DNA from: Microbacterium sp. Marseille-Q6965 | GTDB taxonomy: Bacteria > Actinomycetota > Actinomycetes > Actinomycetales > Microbacteriaceae | Direction: 5' to 3' | Assembly: GCF_946151065.1 (NCBI RefSeq) | Contig: NZ_CAMGZA010000001.1 | Span: 62,001 to 126,000, forward strand | DNA: 64,000 bases | In this document: piece after piece, positions 21,318 through 30,753 of the stretch | Layout of the letters: each line of letters opens with the position of its first letter | How positions within the stretch are numbered: position 1 is the first letter of the stretch | The notes under the pieces: generated by a model | What the model was told of the DNA's origin: nothing | What the model saw: only the letters and a program-made list of their open reading frames with translations | Database searches by the model: none | Program-made: the position numbers and the translations under genes

Positions 21318-22079
21318 ATGGCATCCAAGAGGCGAGGCGCCGGCATCGGCACGGTCTGCGTCGTGCTGGCCGTCGTCGGCGCCGTCGCGGTCTGGGGCGT
21401 CGTGACCGTTGTCGGCGCCCTCAGCGGATTCCGGCCGGCGGAGGGGTGGGAGCCGGAGGCCGCCGCGCCGAGCGCTCCCGACCCGCTGTCGGCGGCCCCC
21501 GCGCTCGCCCCGGTGGGCTCCGATGGCGCCATCGAACCGACGTGGCTGACAGAGGTCGCGGGTGCCACGGGCATTCCGGAACGCGCTCTGGCCGCGTACG
21601 CGGCGGCCGACGCCCGAGCGCGGCAGGACGGATGCGCCGTCGGGTGGAACACCCTGGCCGGCATCGGCTGGGTCGAGAGCCACCACGGGGCCCTCCACGG
21701 GGGCGAGGTGCAAGCGGACGGGTTCGCGCGGCCGGAGATCCTCGGCATTCCGCTCGACGGCACGAACCGTACGCTCGCGATCCCCGACACCGACGGTGGT
21801 GCCCTCGACGGCGACACCGAATGGGACCGGGCCGTCGGGCCACTGCAGTTCATCCCCGAGACCTGGCGCCGGTGGGGCGTCGACGCGAATGGTGATGGGG
21901 CCGCGAGCCCGCACAGCATCGATGACGCCGCGGCCGCCGCCGCCGACTACCTCTGCCGATTGGACGGGACGCTCGAGGGTTCGGACGCGTGGATCCGCGC
22001 CATCCGGTCGTACAACGACACACTGGACTACCAGACGCAGGTGGCGCGGGCCGCCGTGCGATACGCCGCCTCCGGCTGA
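21318..22079 (+). CDS. Membrane-anchored lytic transglycosylase
   Basis: A 253-residue protein with a basic N-terminus and one membrane segment at about 9-35, followed by a Pro/Ala linker to about 65 and a lytic murein transglycosylase domain (SLT_2 type). The catalytic glutamate is in GIGWVESHHGA, and GPLQFIPETWRRWG is the substrate-groove motif. It would cut the MurNAc-GlcNAc bond of peptidoglycan on the outer face of the membrane. ATG at 21318. It is divergent from the kinase gene and followed 100 bases later by a small acidic protein gene. Confidence 0.88.
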   Translation: MASKRRGAGIGTVCVVLAVVGAVAVWGVVTVVGALSGFRPAEGWEPEAAAPSAPDPLSAAPALAPVGSDGAIEPTWLTEVAGATGIPERALAAYAAADARARQDGCAVGWNTLAGIGWVESHHGALHGGEVQADGFARPEILGIPLDGTNRTLAIPDTDGGALDGDTEWDRAVGPLQFIPETWRRWGVDANGDGAASPHSIDDAAAAAADYLCRLDGTLEGSDAWIRAIRSYNDTLDYQTQVARAAVRYAASG

Positions 22080-23396: not shown

Positions 23397-24464
23397 ATGA
23401 CGATCCTGTCTTCGACCGCCGCTCCCTCCCTCGGATTCCACGATCGCGGTCCGCTCAGCCGTACGGTGCGGGAGCGCATCATCGCCGTCGATAAGGGTCA
23501 CGCTCCGCCGGCGCGGGAGCTGGATGACGCCGTCAGCGAGGCGCTGGAGAGGGCGTCGGATGTCGTCACCGACGACGATGTGCAGCTCGCGCTGTTCCTT
23601 CTCTACGGGTCGGCCTACGGCTCCTTCGGCTCGTTCGGGGTGCACTCCGAGTGGGATCCGGTGCTCCTCACGGCGCGTGCGCGGCTGGAGCGTGCGTTCG
23701 AGGCCCGCGTGCGCGAACTCACCCCGCCCGTTCCGACGCCGGATCCGTCCACCGCCGACGGCATCGCGGCCGTGCTTTTCGAGCTCACCGCGCCGCAGCC
23801 GAGCCCGGGGCTGGCCCGGTTCGTCGAGAAGCAGGCGGACGCGGAGCAGATCCGCGAGATGCTCGTCCTGCGCAGCATCTACACGCTGCGCGAGGCGGAC
23901 CCGCATTCGTGGGCGATACCGCGCCTGACGGGGCGCCCGAAGGTGGCCCTCGTCGAGATCCAGTCCGACGAGTACGGCGGCGGCCGGCCGGAGCGGATGC
24001 ACGCCACCCTGTACGCCGCCGCCATGCGCGGTGCGGGGCTGGAGGATCGCTATGGCGCCTACGTCGATGCGGTGCCCGCTGTCACCCTGGCGGCGCAGAA
24101 CATGATGTCGATGTTCGGGCTGAACCGCCGACTGCTCGGCGCCATCGTCGGGCACCTCGCGGCCTTCGAGATGACCTCCTCGCTGCCGAATCGACGCTAT
24201 GCCGACGGGATGCGCCGCGTGGGCTTCGGACCCGAGGTCACGGAATACTTCGACGAGCACGTGGAAGCGGATGCCGTGCACGAGCAGATCGCCGGGAGGG
24301 ATCTCGCGGGTCGACTGGGGGAGGAGCACCCGGAGCTGCTGCCCGACATCCTCTTCGGCGCCGCGGCGTGCCTGGCGGTGGACGATCTCGTCGCCGACCA
24401 CGTCCTCGCCGCATGGCGCTCCGGCGGCAGCGCCCTGCGGGCCGCGGAGGCGGCCACGCCGTGA
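23397..24464 (+). CDS. Iron-containing redox enzyme, haem-oxygenase-like fold
   Basis: A 355-residue all-helical protein of the Haem_oxygenas_2 / haem-oxygenase-like di-iron oxidase type. The first 110 residues form a helical extension (VTDDDVQLALFLLYG). The metal-binding pattern is visible as EIQSDEYGGGRPERMH near 198-213 and FDEHVEADAVHEQ near 280-292, giving Glu, His, Asp/Glu and His ligands. Characterised relatives carry out N-oxygenation, desaturation or oxidative decarboxylation in natural-product pathways. ATG at 23397. The stop overlaps the GTG of the glycosyltransferase by four bases, so the two are translationally coupled. The substrate is unknown. Confidence 0.85.
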   Translation: MTILSSTAAPSLGFHDRGPLSRTVRERIIAVDKGHAPPARELDDAVSEALERASDVVTDDDVQLALFLLYGSAYGSFGSFGVHSEWDPVLLTARARLERAFEARVRELTPPVPTPDPSTADGIAAVLFELTAPQPSPGLARFVEKQADAEQIREMLVLRSIYTLREADPHSWAIPRLTGRPKVALVEIQSDEYGGGRPERMHATLYAAAMRGAGLEDRYGAYVDAVPAVTLAAQNMMSMFGLNRRLLGAIVGHLAAFEMTSSLPNRRYADGMRRVGFGPEVTEYFDEHVEADAVHEQIAGRDLAGRLGEEHPELLPDILFGAAACLAVDDLVADHVLAAWRSGGSALRAAEAATP

Positions 24465-25465
24465 CCGCCTCGGATCGCCTCGCCCTCGAGTACGTGCTGC
24501 CCCTGCGGCGCAACGACGACTCGGGGGAGGAGGAGCTCGTCCGCTACCTGCGGGCGCTGAGCTCGTGGGTGGACGTCACCGTCGTCGACGGCTCGGACGA
24601 CCCGCTCTTCCGACGCTTGGATGCGGCGCTGGCGGGGACGACGGTCCGGCACGCGGCGCCGTTCGTCGACGGCACGAACGGCAAGGCCCGCGGCGCCGTG
24701 AGCGGGCTGCTGCGGGCGCGCCATGACCGCGTGGTGATCGCCGATGACGACGTGCGATACACGCGTGCCGACCTGGAGGCCGTGCACGACAGATTGAGGC
24801 GCGCCGACGTCGTGCGCGTGCAGAACGCCTATCGCCCCTTGCCGTGGCACGCACGTTGGGACACCGGGCGGATCCTCCTGAACCGCGCGCTCGGCGGCGA
24901 CTACGGCGGCACGCTGGGCGTGCGCGCGCCCCTGCTCGGTCGGCGCGGCGGCTACCGCACCGACGTGCTCTTCGAGAACCTCGAGCTCGAGCGCACCATC
25001 CGCGCGGAGGGCGGCAGCGTCGACGTTCCTCTGGGTCTGCTGGTCCGCCGGCTCCCGCCCACGGTCCCTCACTTCCTCGGGCAGCGGGTGCGCCAGGCGT
25101 ACGACGGATTCGCGCAGCCGGTGCGGCTGCTCGCAGAGCTCTCCGTTCTCCCGCTCGTCGTGGTCCTGATGGCGGCTGGGCGGGCGAAGACCCTCGCCGG
25201 CGCCATCGCCGGGGTCGTGTGCGTCGCCGAGTTCGGCCGACGGCGCGGTGGCGCGGCGCGGGCCTTCCCGCCCACGTCCGCCCTCTGGGCGCCGCTCTGG
25301 CTCGCCGAGCGCGCGGTGACGGCGTGGCTCGCGGTGGCGGCCCGCGCGCGTGGCGGCGTCCGGTACGGCCCGTCACGCCTCCGCACCGCGGCATCGCCGC
25401 TGCGCCGGCTGCGCGCCGCGGCGGCGCACGAAAACAGGGATCGGGGGGACGCCCATGCAGCATGA
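24461..25465 (+). CDS. Family 2-like glycosyltransferase with C-terminal membrane segments
   Basis: A 334-residue GT-A protein. LEYVLPLRRND opens the first strand, VTVVDGSDD binds nucleotide, and VVIADDDVRYT holds the metal-binding aspartates. RTDVLFENLELERTIRAEGG resembles the acceptor/ED region. Two hydrophobic segments at about 230-262 and 275-300 suggest membrane attachment. The GTG at 24461 overlaps the preceding stop (GTGA) and the 3' end overlaps the next start by 11 bases, so three genes form one tight unit. The sugar donor and acceptor are unknown. Confidence 0.82.
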   Translation: MTASDRLALEYVLPLRRNDDSGEEELVRYLRALSSWVDVTVVDGSDDPLFRRLDAALAGTTVRHAAPFVDGTNGKARGAVSGLLRARHDRVVIADDDVRYTRADLEAVHDRLRRADVVRVQNAYRPLPWHARWDTGRILLNRALGGDYGGTLGVRAPLLGRRGGYRTDVLFENLELERTIRAEGGSVDVPLGLLVRRLPPTVPHFLGQRVRQAYDGFAQPVRLLAELSVLPLVVVLMAAGRAKTLAGAIAGVVCVAEFGRRRGGAARAFPPTSALWAPLWLAERAVTAWLAVAARARGGVRYGPSRLRTAASPLRRLRAAAAHENRDRGDAHAA

Positions 25466-25661
25466 GACGCCGACCATCACCGTCTGCCCGGACGGGCCGC
25501 TGCTCGTGCGCGGTGTGACGGAGCTCGTCGACGCGGACGGCAACCGGATCGAGCCTCGACGGCGCACCTTCGCGCTGTGCCGTTGTGGCGCGACCGGCAT
25601 CCCTCCCTGGTGTGACGGCACGCACAAGCTGGTGACGCGTGCCCGCGGAGGCGACGGATAG
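25455..25661 (+). CDS. CDGSH-type iron-sulfur protein
   Basis: A 68-residue protein with a single CDGSH motif, CRCGATGIPPWCDGTHK, which supplies three cysteines and one histidine for a 2Fe-2S cluster. The preceding half (ITVCPDGPLLVRG, NRIEPRRR) is the usual beta-rich scaffold. Such proteins carry electrons or act in iron homeostasis. Its start lies inside the end of the glycosyltransferase gene, and it is the third gene of the unit, so it may be the electron donor for the iron enzyme at 23397 (inference). Confidence 0.92.
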   Translation: MQHETPTITVCPDGPLLVRGVTELVDADGNRIEPRRRTFALCRCGATGIPPWCDGTHKLVTRARGGDG

Positions 25662-25756
25662 GGCGCCGCCCGCGGGGCGACGGGGAGGGCCCCTCCCTCG
25701 CCCGATTCGCACCGTTCCCGAACGCGTTGCCTGCGCGTAACCTCCGTCGGCGGATT

Positions 25757-25784
25757 CGTTCACCCCCGCGGCGCAGGGTGAACG
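25757..25784 (+). repeat. 9-bp perfect inverted repeat abutting the start of the sialyltransferase-like gene
   Basis: CGTTCACCC (25757-25765) and GGGTGAACG (25776-25784) flank a 10-base loop. Only one base separates the second arm from the ATG at 25786. The purine-rich arm is the only possible ribosome-binding sequence. It could act as an operator or as an RNA hairpin that controls translation of the cassette. Confidence 0.6.
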
Positions 25785-25785
25785 C

Positions 25786-26718
25786 ATGGTGGGCGAATCG
25801 GTGCTCGCGTGGGTGGAATCGCCTCTGCAGCTGGTTGGTGCGGCGGAGTGGGCGGCTGCGCACGGCCGCACCGTCGACCTGGCGGCGCGCGTCACGTCGC
25901 AGATTCCCGAGACGGCCGACGAGCTCCTTCGACGCGGCGCCGCCTTCGGTGAGAAGCAGCCCTACTTCGGCATCCCCTGGCGGATGCTGGCCACCCACGA
26001 GCATTGGCTCGTCGGTGACGGCTTCTCGGGACAGTTCCGGCTTGCGGCGGCCGTCCTTCGCCCGCGGCGGCTGACCTTCCTCGACGACGGGCTCAACACG
26101 CTGGCCTTCGCCGATGCGATCGCCGGCACGCGCCCCTACCGCCGTCCGGGCGTCACCGAGCGCGGTCTCACGACGCATATCGCGCCCCTCGCGCTCGACC
26201 ACGTGCGGCGGCGCTCGCTCGCCGGAAGCGGCGGTCTGTTCACCGCCTTCCCGCTCGGCGCGGCGCGGGAGGCGGCCGTGGGCGAGTACGCGCTGCGCGT
26301 CGAACGGCACGCGTTCGAGTGGCTCCGCGCCTCCGCCCCGAGCGGTACCGTCACCACGGCGCTGCGCGGCGACCGGGTCGTGCTCGGCACCGCGCGGTCC
26401 GTCGACGGTCACATGAGGCGTTCCGAGCACCTCGCGTGGGTGGCACGGGAGGCAGCGGCGGGCCCCGTCGCCTACCTGCCGCACCGCCGCGAGCCCGACG
26501 ACTTGCTCGAGGCGATCGCGCGCATCCCGGGGGTGCGGGTGGTGCGGCTCAACCTGCCCGTGGAGGTAGCGCTGGCGGGGCTGGACCACCCGATCGAGGT
26601 GCGCACGCTCCTGTCGAGCACGCTGACGACGCTGCCGATCGTGCTGGCCGGCAGCGGCAGCACGATCGTCCAGGCCGGCGATCCCGCTCCCCGCGCACGC
26701 TTGGAGGCCTCGTCGTGA
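25786..26718 (+). CDS. Polysialyltransferase-like glycosyltransferase
   Basis: A 310-residue protein without signal peptide. It begins SVLAWVESPLQLVGAAEWA, typical of the bacterial alpha-2,8-polysialyltransferase/POLYST family (GT-B fold), and ends with IEVRTLLSSTLTTLPIVL, a stretch characteristic of that group. FLDDGLNTL near 102-110 matches the conserved nucleotide-sugar region with acidic residues. It would transfer a CMP-activated nonulosonic acid to a surface glycan. First gene of a four-gene coupled cassette; its stop overlaps the next GTG. No conventional Shine-Dalgarno sequence; an inverted repeat sits there instead. Acceptor unknown. Confidence 0.75.
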   Translation: MVGESVLAWVESPLQLVGAAEWAAAHGRTVDLAARVTSQIPETADELLRRGAAFGEKQPYFGIPWRMLATHEHWLVGDGFSGQFRLAAAVLRPRRLTFLDDGLNTLAFADAIAGTRPYRRPGVTERGLTTHIAPLALDHVRRRSLAGSGGLFTAFPLGAAREAAVGEYALRVERHAFEWLRASAPSGTVTTALRGDRVVLGTARSVDGHMRRSEHLAWVAREAAAGPVAYLPHRREPDDLLEAIARIPGVRVVRLNLPVEVALAGLDHPIEVRTLLSSTLTTLPIVLAGSGSTIVQAGDPAPRARLEASS

Positions 26719-27926
26719 GCGAGACGGTGGCGATCATCCCCGCACGCGGCGGATCGCGGGGCGTGCCGGGCAAGAACCTGCGTGCGGTCGGTGGCGTGCC
26801 GCTCGTCGCGCGCGCGATCGCGGCGGCGCGCAAGGCGGAGGGCATCGACCGCGTCGTGGTCACCACGGACGACGACGACATCGCCTCGCTCGCGGCCGAG
26901 TGGGGTGCCGACGTCGTCCGTCGCCCCGCCGAGCTGGCGGGCGACAGCGCCAGTTCCGAGAGCGCGCTGCTGCACGCGCTCGACGAGCTCGGCGGGCGCG
27001 GTGTGCAGGCGCGCGTACTCGTGTTCCTGCAGGCGACCTCCCCCTTCATCGACGCTGTGGCGCTGAGCGAGGCCGTGCGCCAGGTTCGCGAGGGCGAGGC
27101 GGACAGCACGCTCTCGGCCGTGGAGAGCTACGGCTTCCTCTGGCGACGCACGCGCGCCGGCGCCGAGGGCGTCAACCACGACGCAGCGCACCGCCCGCGC
27201 CGACAGGACCGCGAGCCGCACTACCTCGAGACGGGCGCGTTCTACGTCATGGACGCCGACGGCTTCCGGGCCGCGCGCCACCGCTTCTTCGGCCGCATCT
27301 CGCTCATCGAGGTCCCCGAGCGCACCGCACTCGAGATCGACACCCCCGAACAGCTCGAGCTCGCCCGCGTCCTGGCCGCCGGATCGGGGGATACCGATGG
27401 CGACCGGATCGACGTGGACGCCGTCGTGACGGACTTCGACGGCGTGCACACCGACGACACCGTCCTGGTCGCGGGCGACGGGAGCGAGCACGTGCGCGTC
27501 AGCCGCTCGGATGGGATGGGCGTGCGCCTGCTGCGCGAGGCCGGCATCCCGATGCTCATCCTCTCGACCGAGACGCACCCGGTCGTCACGGCGCGGGCGC
27601 GCAAGCTGCGCGTCGACGTGCTGCAGGCGCAGGACGACAAGGCGGCGGCTCTGCGCCGCTGGGCCGCGGAGCGCGACATCCCCCTCTCGCGCCTGGCGTA
27701 CCTGGGCAACGACGTGAACGATCTGCCGGCGCTCGAGATCGTCGGCTGGCCCGTCGCCGTGCGCGACGCGCACCCGCTCGTCCTCGCCGCCGCGCGCCTC
27801 GTGCTCGACCGACCGGGCGGGGGCGGCGCCGTGCGCGACCTCGCCGACCGCGTGCTGCGCGCGCGTGACGACCAGACCCGGTGGCCTCTCGAGGCCGCCA
27901 CCGCACCAACCAGGGAGAACACATGA
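26715..27926 (+). CDS. neuA: CMP-nonulosonate (acylneuraminate) cytidylyltransferase fused to a HAD phosphatase
   Basis: A 403-residue two-domain protein. Residues 1-220 are a CMP-sialate synthetase with IIPARGGSRGVPGKNL at 7-22, QATSPF near 106 and the E-x-GAFY region near 171-178. Residues about 233-390 are a KdsC-like HAD phosphatase with TDFDGVHTDD near 239-248 (nucleophile Asp), LSTE and LGNDVNDLPAL. The fusion would dephosphorylate the nonulosonate-9-phosphate and activate the free sugar with CTP. GTG at 26715 overlaps the previous stop; the 3' end overlaps neuB by four bases. Whether the sugar is Neu5Ac, legionaminate or pseudaminate is not decidable. Confidence 0.9.
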   Translation: MSETVAIIPARGGSRGVPGKNLRAVGGVPLVARAIAAARKAEGIDRVVVTTDDDDIASLAAEWGADVVRRPAELAGDSASSESALLHALDELGGRGVQARVLVFLQATSPFIDAVALSEAVRQVREGEADSTLSAVESYGFLWRRTRAGAEGVNHDAAHRPRRQDREPHYLETGAFYVMDADGFRAARHRFFGRISLIEVPERTALEIDTPEQLELARVLAAGSGDTDGDRIDVDAVVTDFDGVHTDDTVLVAGDGSEHVRVSRSDGMGVRLLREAGIPMLILSTETHPVVTARARKLRVDVLQAQDDKAAALRRWAAERDIPLSRLAYLGNDVNDLPALEIVGWPVAVRDAHPLVLAAARLVLDRPGGGGAVRDLADRVLRARDDQTRWPLEAATAPTRENT

Positions 27927-28795
27927 CCGTCCGCATCGGATCGCGCGTGATCGGCGGGGGCCGCCCGGCGTACGTGATCGCCGAGATCGGCCTCAACCAC
28001 AACGGCGACGTGGAGCTCGCGAAGCAGCTCATCGATGTCGCCGCCGAGGCCGGCGCCGACGCCGTCAAGTTCCAGAAGCGCACCCCCGAGATCGCCACCC
28101 CCGAGCACATGCGCGACATGCCGCGCGAAACGCCGTGGGGCACCATGACCTACCTCGAGTACCGTCACCGCGTCGAGTTCGGGCGCGAGGAGTACGTCGC
28201 GATCGGCGACCACGCCACCCTGCGCGGCCTCGACTGGTTCGCCTCGCCGTGGGATGTGCCGAGCGTGGAATTCCTGGAGGACCTCAACGTGGTCGCCCAC
28301 AAGGTCGCCTCCGCCTGCCTCACCGACACCGAGCTGCTGGAGGCGCTGCGGGCCACCGGCAAGCCGATCATCCTCTCCACGGGCATGTCGACGATGCAGC
28401 AGATCGACCGCGCCATCGAGGTGCTCGGCACGGAGCACCTCGTGCTCCTGCACGCGACGTCGACCTATCCGATGGAGCCGGAGGAGGCGAACCTGCGCAT
28501 GATCCGTGTGCTCAGCGATCGCTACCCCGGCGTGCCGGTGGGTTACTCGGGGCACGAGCGCGGCCTGCAGATCTCGCTCGCGGCCGTCGCGATGGGCGCG
28601 CAGGTGGTCGAGAGGCACATCACGCTCGACCGCACCATGTGGGGCTCGGATCACGCGGCCTCGCTCGAGCCCACCGGCCTGAAGAACCTCGTCAGGGACA
28701 TCCGCATCATCGAGAACGCGTTCGGTGACGGGGTGAAGCGGGTCTTCCCGGGCGAGGAGGCGCCGATGGCGAAGCTGCGTCGCGTTCCCGCGTGA
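27923..28795 (+). CDS. neuB: N-acetylneuraminate synthase family protein lacking the SAF domain
   Basis: A 290-residue (beta/alpha)8-barrel that condenses phosphoenolpyruvate with an N-acylated hexosamine (or its 6-phosphate) to give a nonulosonic acid. Motifs are IAEIGLNHNGD, VKFQKRTPE, STGMSTM, ATSTYPMEPEEANL, GYSGHERG and VERHITLD with GSDHAASLEP. The chain stops at KLRRVPA right after the barrel. Canonical NeuB has a further C-terminal antifreeze-like (SAF) domain of about 60 residues that helps close the partner subunit's active site, and it is absent here. The ATG overlaps the preceding stop. No NeuC-type epimerase is in the cassette. Confidence 0.9.
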   Translation: MTVRIGSRVIGGGRPAYVIAEIGLNHNGDVELAKQLIDVAAEAGADAVKFQKRTPEIATPEHMRDMPRETPWGTMTYLEYRHRVEFGREEYVAIGDHATLRGLDWFASPWDVPSVEFLEDLNVVAHKVASACLTDTELLEALRATGKPIILSTGMSTMQQIDRAIEVLGTEHLVLLHATSTYPMEPEEANLRMIRVLSDRYPGVPVGYSGHERGLQISLAAVAMGAQVVERHITLDRTMWGSDHAASLEPTGLKNLVRDIRIIENAFGDGVKRVFPGEEAPMAKLRRVPA

Positions 28796-30039
28796 CCGAC
28801 ACGGACCACCCGCGGATCGTCGCGGTCGCCGACACGGACTCGTATGTGAAGTGGGCGGCGGCCCTGCTGGCGCCGGTGCCCGGGGCCGAGCTCATCGTGC
28901 TCGAGACCGAGCTGGTCGTCAGCCTGGCGCAGCAGCGCGCGGCCCTGGAGGGCAGTGGGCTTAAGCGCGTGAGGCGGGCGACGTACGACCAGCTCCCCAC
29001 ACTGCTGGCGGGCGCCGACGCGGTGCTGCTGGCCGCGCGCGGACCGCTCGTGCGGGTGCTCGCGCGACTGGCGGCACAGCTCGACCCGGCACCCGTGATC
29101 CTCACGGGGCTGCCGGGAATCTCGATCCCGCCCACCTGGCTGGCCCTGCACTTCCGGCGCGGGTGCGACCTGTTCGTCCTGCACTCGCGCCGCGAGGTGC
29201 GGGAGTTTCGCGCGCTGGCGGCGGCGCGCGGCATCGCCCAGCGCTTCGCCCTCGCCACCCTGCCGTTCGCGCGCGCGGCGAATCCCGTTGAGCGGAACGG
29301 CACCGACCTCGTGTTCGCCGCCCAGGCGATCGTGCCAGCGCTGCGCGAGCACCGCGAGCACGTCGCGCGCCTGCTCGTCCGGGCGGCGCGCGCGCATCCC
29401 GATCGGCGAGTGGTGCTCAAGCTCCGCGCGCGCCCGGGCGAGGCCGAGACGCACCGCGAGCTCGTGTCGTACCCCGAGCTGATGGCGCAACTGGGGGAGG
29501 TGCCCCCGAACCTCGTCACCTCGACGGCCCCGATGGTCGAGGCCCTCGCCACCGCCGAGGGACTGGTCACGGTCAGTTCGACGGCCGCCATCGAGGCCGC
29601 CGCACAGGGCGTGCCCGTGATCGCGCTCGACACGTTCGGGGTCTCCGGCCGGCTGATCAACCTCGTGTTCGAGGGCAGCGGACTGCTGGCGGGAGACGAT
29701 GAGGTCGTCGCGCGCCGGTTCCGCACCCCCGAGCCCGACTGGCTGGGGGACAACTACTTCCACGATCGGGCCGAGGACGACTGGCTCGCGCGCACGGCCG
29801 AGCTCGTGCGGCGCCGGCGCGCCGGGCTGCTTCCGCCGCGACCGGTCCCGCGTCTCGTGGGCGGGCGTGCGCGCGACGCGTGGGAACGCAAACTCGCCCT
29901 CGGCGACCGCGACCGCTCGCTCAGCGGCGCGCTCGCCTACGCCGTCGGCGTACCGGTGCGGCGCGTGCTGCGCATCGTGCGCCGCCACGGCGCAGGCCGT
30001 CGTGCTTCCGGGGCCGGCTCGGCGCCGACTCCCGCCTGA
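28792..30039 (+). CDS. DUF6716-type putative glycosyltransferase
   Basis: A 415-residue protein that looks like a GT-B glycosyltransferase of the capsule/polysialate type. PRIVAVADTDSYVKWA opens the first Rossmann domain. TGLPGISIPPTWLALHFRRG lies near residue 105. The second domain has TSTAPMVEALATAEGLVTVSSTAAIEAA near 240-268, the usual nucleotide-sugar site. FSG-like GRLINLVFEGSGLLAG follows. It matches my memory of DUF6716 proteins, which occur beside neuA/neuB in actinobacteria. GTG at 28792 overlaps the neuB stop by four bases. Last gene of the cassette; likely adds or extends the nonulosonic acid glycan. Confidence 0.8.
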   Translation: MTDTDHPRIVAVADTDSYVKWAAALLAPVPGAELIVLETELVVSLAQQRAALEGSGLKRVRRATYDQLPTLLAGADAVLLAARGPLVRVLARLAAQLDPAPVILTGLPGISIPPTWLALHFRRGCDLFVLHSRREVREFRALAAARGIAQRFALATLPFARAANPVERNGTDLVFAAQAIVPALREHREHVARLLVRAARAHPDRRVVLKLRARPGEAETHRELVSYPELMAQLGEVPPNLVTSTAPMVEALATAEGLVTVSSTAAIEAAAQGVPVIALDTFGVSGRLINLVFEGSGLLAGDDEVVARRFRTPEPDWLGDNYFHDRAEDDWLARTAELVRRRRAGLLPPRPVPRLVGGRARDAWERKLALGDRDRSLSGALAYAVGVPVRRVLRIVRRHGAGRRASGAGSAPTPA

Positions 30040-30072
30040 CCGTGCCGCCCGGCGGGCGACGTCTGGCGGCCG

Positions 30073-30753
30073 TCAGAGATCGATGACGCGGCCGTGGTCC
30101 CACGGCTCGTCCCAGCCCAGGCGGGCGAGCATGGCGTCAAGGACGTTGGCCGTGAAACCCCAGATGAGGTGCTCGCGTCCATCCACGCGCACGCGCCACG
30201 CCGGCCCCGTGAAGGAGAGGCCGCCGCGTCGCAGCCGTGTGGTCCAGCGGTTGGCGGGATCGATCAGGTCGGCCACCGGGGCACGGAAGACGGAGGAGGA
30301 CTCGCCGTCGTCGACCACCCGCACGGGTGTGGGGCGCGCCCACCACCCGAGCACCGGGGTCACGCGGTGCGCGGAGGGCGGCAGCGGCACTTCGGGCAGG
30401 GTGCCGAGCACCTCGACGCCGGCCGGGTCGAGGCCCGTCTCCTCGACGGCCTCGCGCAGCGCCGCGTCGACCGGCCCGGCGTCGTCGGGGTCGATCCGGC
30501 CGCCGGGGAACGCCACCTCGCCGGCATGGCTGCGCAGCGTCGTCGCACGTGCGAGCAGCAGCACGTCGAGGTCCCGAGAGACCGCGCCGGCGGCGTGGAC
30601 CGCGGGGGCACCGTCGAGCACTCCGAACAGGACGAGCACGGCCGCGGCGCGGTAGTGGTCGTAGAGCGCAAACTCCGCCCAGCGCTCCGCGACGGCGGGA
30701 TCGCCCGCGAGCGCGCGCAGCTGTTCTCGCGCGGAGGCCGGCGGTTGCGTCAT
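30073..30753 (-). CDS. Nudix hydrolase, CoA pyrophosphatase-like
   Basis: A 226-residue Nudix protein. The Nudix box runs FPGGRIDPDDAGPVDAALRE followed by AVEETGL, near residues 82-108, with Asp at the position where most Nudix boxes have the first Glu, as is usual in this CoA-diphosphatase subgroup. LRSHAGEVAFPGG just before it is the second CoA-pyrophosphatase (NudL) signature. It would split CoA or its derivatives into acyl-phosphopantetheine and 3',5'-ADP. ATG at 30753 lies 8 bases after TAACGT. It is convergent with the sialic acid cassette and divergent from the GH3 gene. Confidence 0.85.
   Translation of the reverse strand: MTQPPASAREQLRALAGDPAVAERWAEFALYDHYRAAAVLVLFGVLDGAPAVHAAGAVSRDLDVLLLARATTLRSHAGEVAFPGGRIDPDDAGPVDAALREAVEETGLDPAGVEVLGTLPEVPLPPSAHRVTPVLGWWARPTPVRVVDDGESSSVFRAPVADLIDPANRWTTRLRRGGLSFTGPAWRVRVDGREHLIWGFTANVLDAMLARLGWDEPWDHGRVIDL

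Follow-up and report, generated by a model that had tools for sequence, protein, structure and literature searches.

How can a sialic acid-like sugar be made from a gene cassette that carries no epimerase to supply its precursor? This question is raised by a compact operon of Microbacterium sp. Marseille-Q6965, found at positions 25786-30039 of a 64,000-nucleotide stretch of DNA (the window; bases 62001-126000 of contig C1, in a genome of 2.85 Mb given as 99.99% complete). The operon comprises four plus-strand genes: A (25786-26718), encoding a 310 amino acid GT-B protein that is a putative transferase of the cytidine monophosphate (CMP)-activated sugar 2-keto-3-deoxynononic acid (Kdn); B (26715-27926), encoding a 403 amino acid fusion of a CMP-sugar synthetase (residues ~1-225) with a haloacid dehalogenase (HAD) domain of the KdsC or Kdn-9-phosphatase type (~233-385); a 290 amino acid NeuB-family synthase (27923-28795), putatively a Kdn-9-phosphate synthase; and a 415 amino acid GT-B protein of the DUF6716 family (28792-30039), a putative second glycosyltransferase. 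We interpret the operon, with a probability of about 80%, as a cassette for the synthesis and transfer of Kdn, of the kind involved in the production of teichulosonic acids. The usual sialic acid epimerase would then be absent because the Kdn route from mannose-6-phosphate requires none.

All four genes were picked by codon-usage scoring (88 for A, 167 for B, 144 for NeuB and 128 for DUF6716), and a cruder GC filter listed three of them, leaving out B. The original prediction of four genes with 4-base overlaps is upheld by all three junctions, by the codon scores and by the exact recurrence of the gene order A-B-NeuB-DUF6716 in 12 of 80 named loci (here and below, the best 80 of 585, with 6 kb flanks). 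Its assignments of the synthetase/HAD fusion, NeuB and DUF6716 agree with the Pfam matches, namely CTP_transf_3 (87.8 bits) and Hydrolase_3 (38.6 bits) in B, 273 bits for NeuB and 397 bits for DUF6716. Among the named loci, the synthetase was found in 77, DUF6716 in 69, the HAD domain in 67, protein A in 44 and all five components in 39.

The absence of NeuC, also noted originally, holds for both the cassette and the whole genome, where profile searches gave zero matches to PF02350, the family of NeuC and WecB (11/14 control matches), and to PF07221 (2/14 control matches). The accompanying claim that a precursor hexosamine must come from elsewhere is probably wrong: the data favour a route from mannose-6-phosphate to Kdn, and a need for hexosamine is unlikely. 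A source of mannose-6-phosphate is provided by the phosphomannose isomerase (PMI) of this genome (PF20511, 89.9 bits, gene C2:294785-295930); PF20511 was taken as the probe because PF01238 performs poorly, with only 2/14 control matches. Among the first 80 of 115 cassette genomes, PMI was found in 79, and PF02350 was not found in 51. In six of these genomes, three of them from one family, the distance between the PMI gene and NeuB is 2.2, 4.1, 4.8, 6.6, 10.5 or 15.7 kb, against an expectation of 0.88 genomes within 17 kb (Poisson, kinship ignored). PMI frames were confirmed in the loci of all six genomes and in locus L156, and in none of the rest of the 104 loci searched.

In the proposed pathway, NeuB would condense mannose-6-phosphate, formed via PMI, with phosphoenolpyruvate (PEP) to yield Kdn-9-phosphate, the HAD half of B would convert it to Kdn, and the synthetase half would produce CMP-Kdn. 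Protein A may then transfer Kdn into a polymer, to which DUF6716 would add a further sugar. This polymer would probably be exported by an ABC-2 transporter encoded outside the cassette, and the exported chain might be fixed to the wall as in the Streptomyces teichulosonic acids, perhaps under phosphate control. The predicted route from mannose-6-phosphate to CMP-Kdn via Kdn-9-phosphate and Kdn resembles that described in PMC6200933 for Prymnesium parvum and Bacteroides thetaiotaomicron, whose enzymes are separate and have measured activities, whereas the cassette enzymes are fused in twos or threes and their activities are predicted. The same paper states that the algal Kdn-9-phosphate synthase accepts mannose-6-phosphate only, and that a similarity search found no phosphatase for the algal route. 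Like the NeuABC systems, the window combines a CMP-synthetase with a NeuB-family synthase, but it has no NeuC, no SAF domain and an additional phosphatase.

The domain composition of NeuB bears on its predicted specificity. PF03102 is the sole Pfam match within its 290 amino acids, and the TIGR03569 model aligns as far as position 272 of 329. The orthologues of 55 of the 56 loci end 287-299 residues after the match start, L049 with its short contig being left unscored, and are therefore devoid of the C-terminal SAF domain. In Neisseria NeuB, this domain binds the N-acetyl group of N-acetylmannosamine; a literature search on its role returned nothing relevant. A second NeuB domain, 33% identical, was observed near the cassette of one other genome, G496, where it ends a 549-residue frame (L080:15734-17380, minus strand) whose first part has no Pfam match.

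The HAD half of B has intact DxD, S, K and ND motifs, across which it aligns with KdsC enzymes; its highest-scoring alignment, at 168.6 bits, is to the putative HAD hydrolase 3mmz. The best structural database match of the synthetase half is 9t4z, named 'PpNeuA' (112 bits), followed by 1qwj (94 bits). The synthetase, HAD and NeuB occur within a single open frame of 674-707 residues, as starts were called, in 14 of the 80 named loci (L111, L112, L116, L117, L119, L120, L121, L123, L124, L126, L128, L129, L136 and L156). These belong to Acrocarpospora, Microtetraspora, Herbidospora and Planobispora of the Streptosporangiaceae, to Streptosporangium, Nonomuraea and Microbispora, which we take to be members of the same family, and to one uncultured Isoptericola. 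Pfam detects all three domains in the frame of Planobispora rosea (L123), the HAD with 21.3 bits. As judged from its sequence, the one-frame protein is a possible one-piece enzyme converting mannose-6-phosphate to CMP-Kdn; among open-licence full texts, we found nothing relevant on such a trifunctional enzyme. Of two loci in genome G284, one has only the HAD half in the gene preceding NeuB (L064:8701-9216), and the other (L065) carries a synthetase-HAD gene and another NeuB on opposite strands. A HAD without synthetase is found at L127:1536-2309, and in Curtobacterium sp. MCBD17_032 (L095:4424-6876) both the synthetase gene and the NeuB gene are broken into two frames, through either sequencing error or decay.

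Protein A had been described as polysialyltransferase-like, a likeness that stands at the level of fold and motifs and fails at the level of sequence families. It has no Pfam match, PF07388 and PF07922 included, its PHROGs search was empty, and a profile search of the Protein Data Bank (PDB) at E 1 likewise came up empty; of 41 family members, one touches PF07388 (E 0.19) and one PF07922 (E 0.18). The structure model built from the 41-row alignment has a mean predicted local confidence (pLDDT) of 94, and its top Foldseek matches are 5wcn, a polysialyltransferase (E 1.3e-7, TM 0.53), and 2yk5, a sialyltransferase of Neisseria (E 7.8e-7). In the VIA-align comparison, 5wc6 comes with Z 15.4 (281 residues aligned, root-mean-square deviation 4.7), ranks 1-7 are bacterial sialyltransferases down to Z 12.8, and UDP-glycosyltransferases come next, from Z 12.6. 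The D/E-D/E-G and HP motifs are described for bacterial sialyltransferases in PMC2169525. PMC5517516 assigns E153 of D/E-D/E-G in the polysialyltransferase MhPST (5wc6, 5wcn) as the base and H291 as the acid, and suggests that S339/T340 may hold the phosphate. Protein A conforms to D/E-D/E-G with DDG (100-102), which is invariant in 41/41 members together with H233-R234, so that HP of GT38/GT52 is replaced by HR with the His retained; position 277 is S in 40/41, and position 278 is S or T in 41/41. It thus shares with MhPST and the GT38/GT52/GT80 enzymes the GT-B fold, the DDG base motif, the His of the catalytic acid and the S-S/T phosphate site, and differs from them in its ~10% identity, in HR for HP and in the lack of a Pfam match. 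By the modelled fold and motifs, A is a putative CMP-nonulosonate transferase that falls outside the described families in the tests made.

Kdn-containing wall polymers, the teichulosonic acids, have been reported for Streptomyces in PMC11481543, PMC7831098 and PMC9000132, the first two giving galactose and Kdn as components of the S. coelicolor polymer. The SCO4873-SCO4882 genes are presented as a teichulosonic acid cluster under PhoP in PMC13011467 (citing Ostash 2014), and SCO4881 is listed as polysaccharide biosynthesis in PMC2267785. The P. rosea Pho regulon given in PMC8269224 includes homologues of SCO4877-SCO4882, among them those of SCO4878 (GT2), SCO4879 (hypothetical), SCO4880 (sialic acid synthase) and SCO4882 (hypothetical); that study names the product teichuronic acid. 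The window similarly holds the NeuB-family synthase, the CMP-synthetase/HAD protein, DUF6716 and A together, but in the order A-B-NeuB-DUF6716, without an adjoining GT2 or PF07388 protein and without a clear PHO box. In Streptomyces, the order DUF6716-B-NeuB-A is found on one strand in 11/11 named loci, 8 of them with HAD, and it fits the published descriptions of SCO4882-SCO4879, a likeness drawn by description via P. rosea and other Streptomyces. Because the Streptomyces polymers were already published, the initial remark that such coats are little studied is only partly apt: it suits Microbacterium and these genes, which no open-licence full text that we recognised treats in that genus, better than actinobacterial chemistry at large.

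NeuB matches at E 1e-20 were found in 58 of 150 genomes of the family sample, 43 of them with at least 69% identity by hand count (excluding G130, a partial 72% match), and matches at E 1e-40 in 111 of 394 genomes of the class sample, 76 of them with at least 63% identity, also by hand count; both figures include the genome under study, as does the count for the genus (6 of 12 genomes listed). The closest of the 80 named loci are those of Microbacterium, with 85-86% NeuB identity, and the NeuB of P. rosea is 72% identical to that of the window. A cluster of GT2 proteins (44 loci) was present in many loci without A and in some with A; the GT2-bearing loci also carry a longer protein, which was a PF07388 polysialyltransferase in 4/4 tested.

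The PHO box is formed by GTTCACC repeats with an 11-base period. PHO-box-like repeats scoring at least 12/14 were found within 200 bases upstream of 9/72 cassette operons, compared with 1/213 other leaders; the counts were 22/72 versus 15/213 at a threshold of at least 11/14, and 2/72 versus 0/213 at 13/14 (p 0.06). These three thresholds were tried on related loci with divergent neighbours excluded, and the result supersedes an earlier test (25/73 versus 39/317), in which divergent neighbours shared the region and another operon rule was applied. The window leader itself scores 9/14 and has no PHO-box direct repeat, which counts against the proposed reading. With respect to export, ABC-2 permease homologues form a cluster near the cassette in 10 of the 80 named loci, and in Demequina (L137) the permease and an ATPase are encoded directly upstream of A. 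The genome under study encodes ABC-2 permease homologues at C2:265612 and C2:286121, and LCP proteins at C1:1243645 and C2:260040. The region C2:260000-296000 (L167-L169) is a surface polysaccharide region with an LCP protein, two ABC-2 permeases, UDP-galactopyranose mutase, glycosyltransferases, PMI and, by eye, rhamnose-type genes, and is a possible partner of the cassette.

Several observations weigh against Kdn as the product, and some of them would fit a conventional cassette for N-acetylneuraminic, legionaminic or pseudaminic acid, with the amino sugar supplied by other loci or from outside. The best NCBIfam model for NeuB is NeuB_NnaB (263 bits versus a cut-off of 400), PseI matching as well, and that for the synthetase half is PseF (139.6 bits versus 205.7). 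The HAD half scores higher with KdsC (96.8 bits) than with Kdn-9-phosphatase (86.1 bits), both below cut-off, which does not settle its type; no NCBIfam model reaches its cut-off for NeuB or for either half of B. Moreover, PF02350 is present in 29 of the 80 cassette genomes, about a third, PMI lies near the cassette in only one of the 80 named loci, and 6ncs, named N-acetylneuraminic acid synthetase, is likewise only 290 amino acids long, so that the loss of SAF supports Kdn without proving it. The HAD is missing in 13 of the 80 named loci, of which L110 and L125 lie on cut contigs and the rest include the whole Curtobacterium set of six as well as three from Streptomyces with synthetase and NeuB in one frame; it is therefore not indispensable, and a phosphatase from elsewhere must be used in such loci. 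Three genome matches to PF02719 (PseB type) at 47, 29 and 29 bits exceed the 20.2-bit cut-off, but two of them (47 and 29 bits) are short-chain dehydrogenases/reductases that fit GDP_Man_Dehyd and Epimerase far better (141-238 bits). The NanE-like match (PF04131, 25.8 bits versus a cut-off of 27) is a nitronate monooxygenase, with 256 bits for that family. Since PF02350 and PF07221 are absent from the genome, and a plain NeuC-NeuB-NeuA route requires no fused phosphatase, we regard a conventional cassette as improbable. It is less probable by far that DUF6716 is itself a divergent 2-epimerase, cryptically supplying the amino sugar. The nearest folds to its model (pLDDT 93) are indeed UDP-GlcNAc 2-epimerases (3ot5, Z 20.3), with epimerases or CapG at ranks 1-27 and NeuC (5zlr) at Z 17.7, and the protein was therefore compared with 12 epimerases (16 regions fetched from cassette genomes, 12 kept by a motif filter). 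The profile match (probability 81%) is limited to residues 190-301 of the nucleotide-binding domain, and in a forced, weak full alignment the blocks bearing the catalytic acids of the epimerases face gaps or non-acids. In the DUF6716 family alignment, no acid is conserved in columns 81-85 or 104-121, and R122, R188, H221, S263, E268 and N290 are among the invariant residues. GT-B transferases share the fold and follow closely from Z 18.3, a DUF6716 profile search of the PDB gave only noise (from E 0.095), and the Pfam label is putative glycosyltransferase, the function at which we rate this protein.

Even if Kdn is made, it may end up in a free capsule, in a glycolipid or on a protein. A wall polymer appears moderately favoured, less firmly than Kdn itself, and a destination outside the wall seems rather unlikely. 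The latter would be consistent with the absence of an exporter, wall ligase or polyprenyl-phosphate transferase in or adjoining the cassette, with the presence of only two candidate transferases when the known polymer also requires galactose transfer, and with the best fold matches of A, which produce capsule or lipooligosaccharide sialosides. On the other hand, the same genes sit in the Streptomyces wall-polymer cluster, ABC-2 permease homologues occur near other cassettes, and both LCP proteins and such permeases are encoded in this genome.

With Kdn as the product, the puzzle of sialic acid synthesis without an epimerase gives way to a pathway that starts from a common sugar phosphate and can be tested, and a cassette of Microbacteriaceae, Streptosporangiaceae, Streptomyces and others is tied to a chemically known wall polymer. 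The one-piece enzyme, if active, would form CMP-Kdn from mannose-6-phosphate, PEP and cytidine triphosphate in a single protein, and A, if active, would found a sialyltransferase family with a Kdn donor. We tentatively suggest, as a broader picture somewhat short of even odds, that a Kdn pathway is widespread in actinobacteria (76/394 sampled class genomes have a short NeuB), that it is carried by ever fewer proteins down to a trifunctional one in Streptosporangiaceae, and that it feeds a phosphate-free, phosphate-regulated envelope polymer via a new HR-for-HP sialyltransferase family.

The neighbouring genes at 21363, 22489, 23397, 24461, 30073, 30846 and 31988 were rejected as cassette parts: they did not recur near cassettes in 20 loci, with the exceptions of one 'nudix' and one GH3 match, and four of them, re-searched in 80 loci, again did not recur. 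The upstream plus-strand set at 23397-25661 encodes a Haem_oxygenas_2 protein and, with a 4-base overlap, a weakly GT21-like glycosyltransferase, neither of which recurs beside other cassettes, and a CDGSH iron-sulfur protein (25455-25661). No sigma-70-type promoters were found within 25400-30300. A perfect inverted repeat with 9-base arms and a 10-base centre, GTTCACCC-N10-GGGTGAAC, lies immediately upstream of the A start codon at 25757-25784. The repeat was absent from all 12 relatives with the same gene order, and GTTCACC occurs within 160 bases upstream of A in 9 of these 12; with one GTTCACC half-site on each strand, the repeat is a possible regulatory site.

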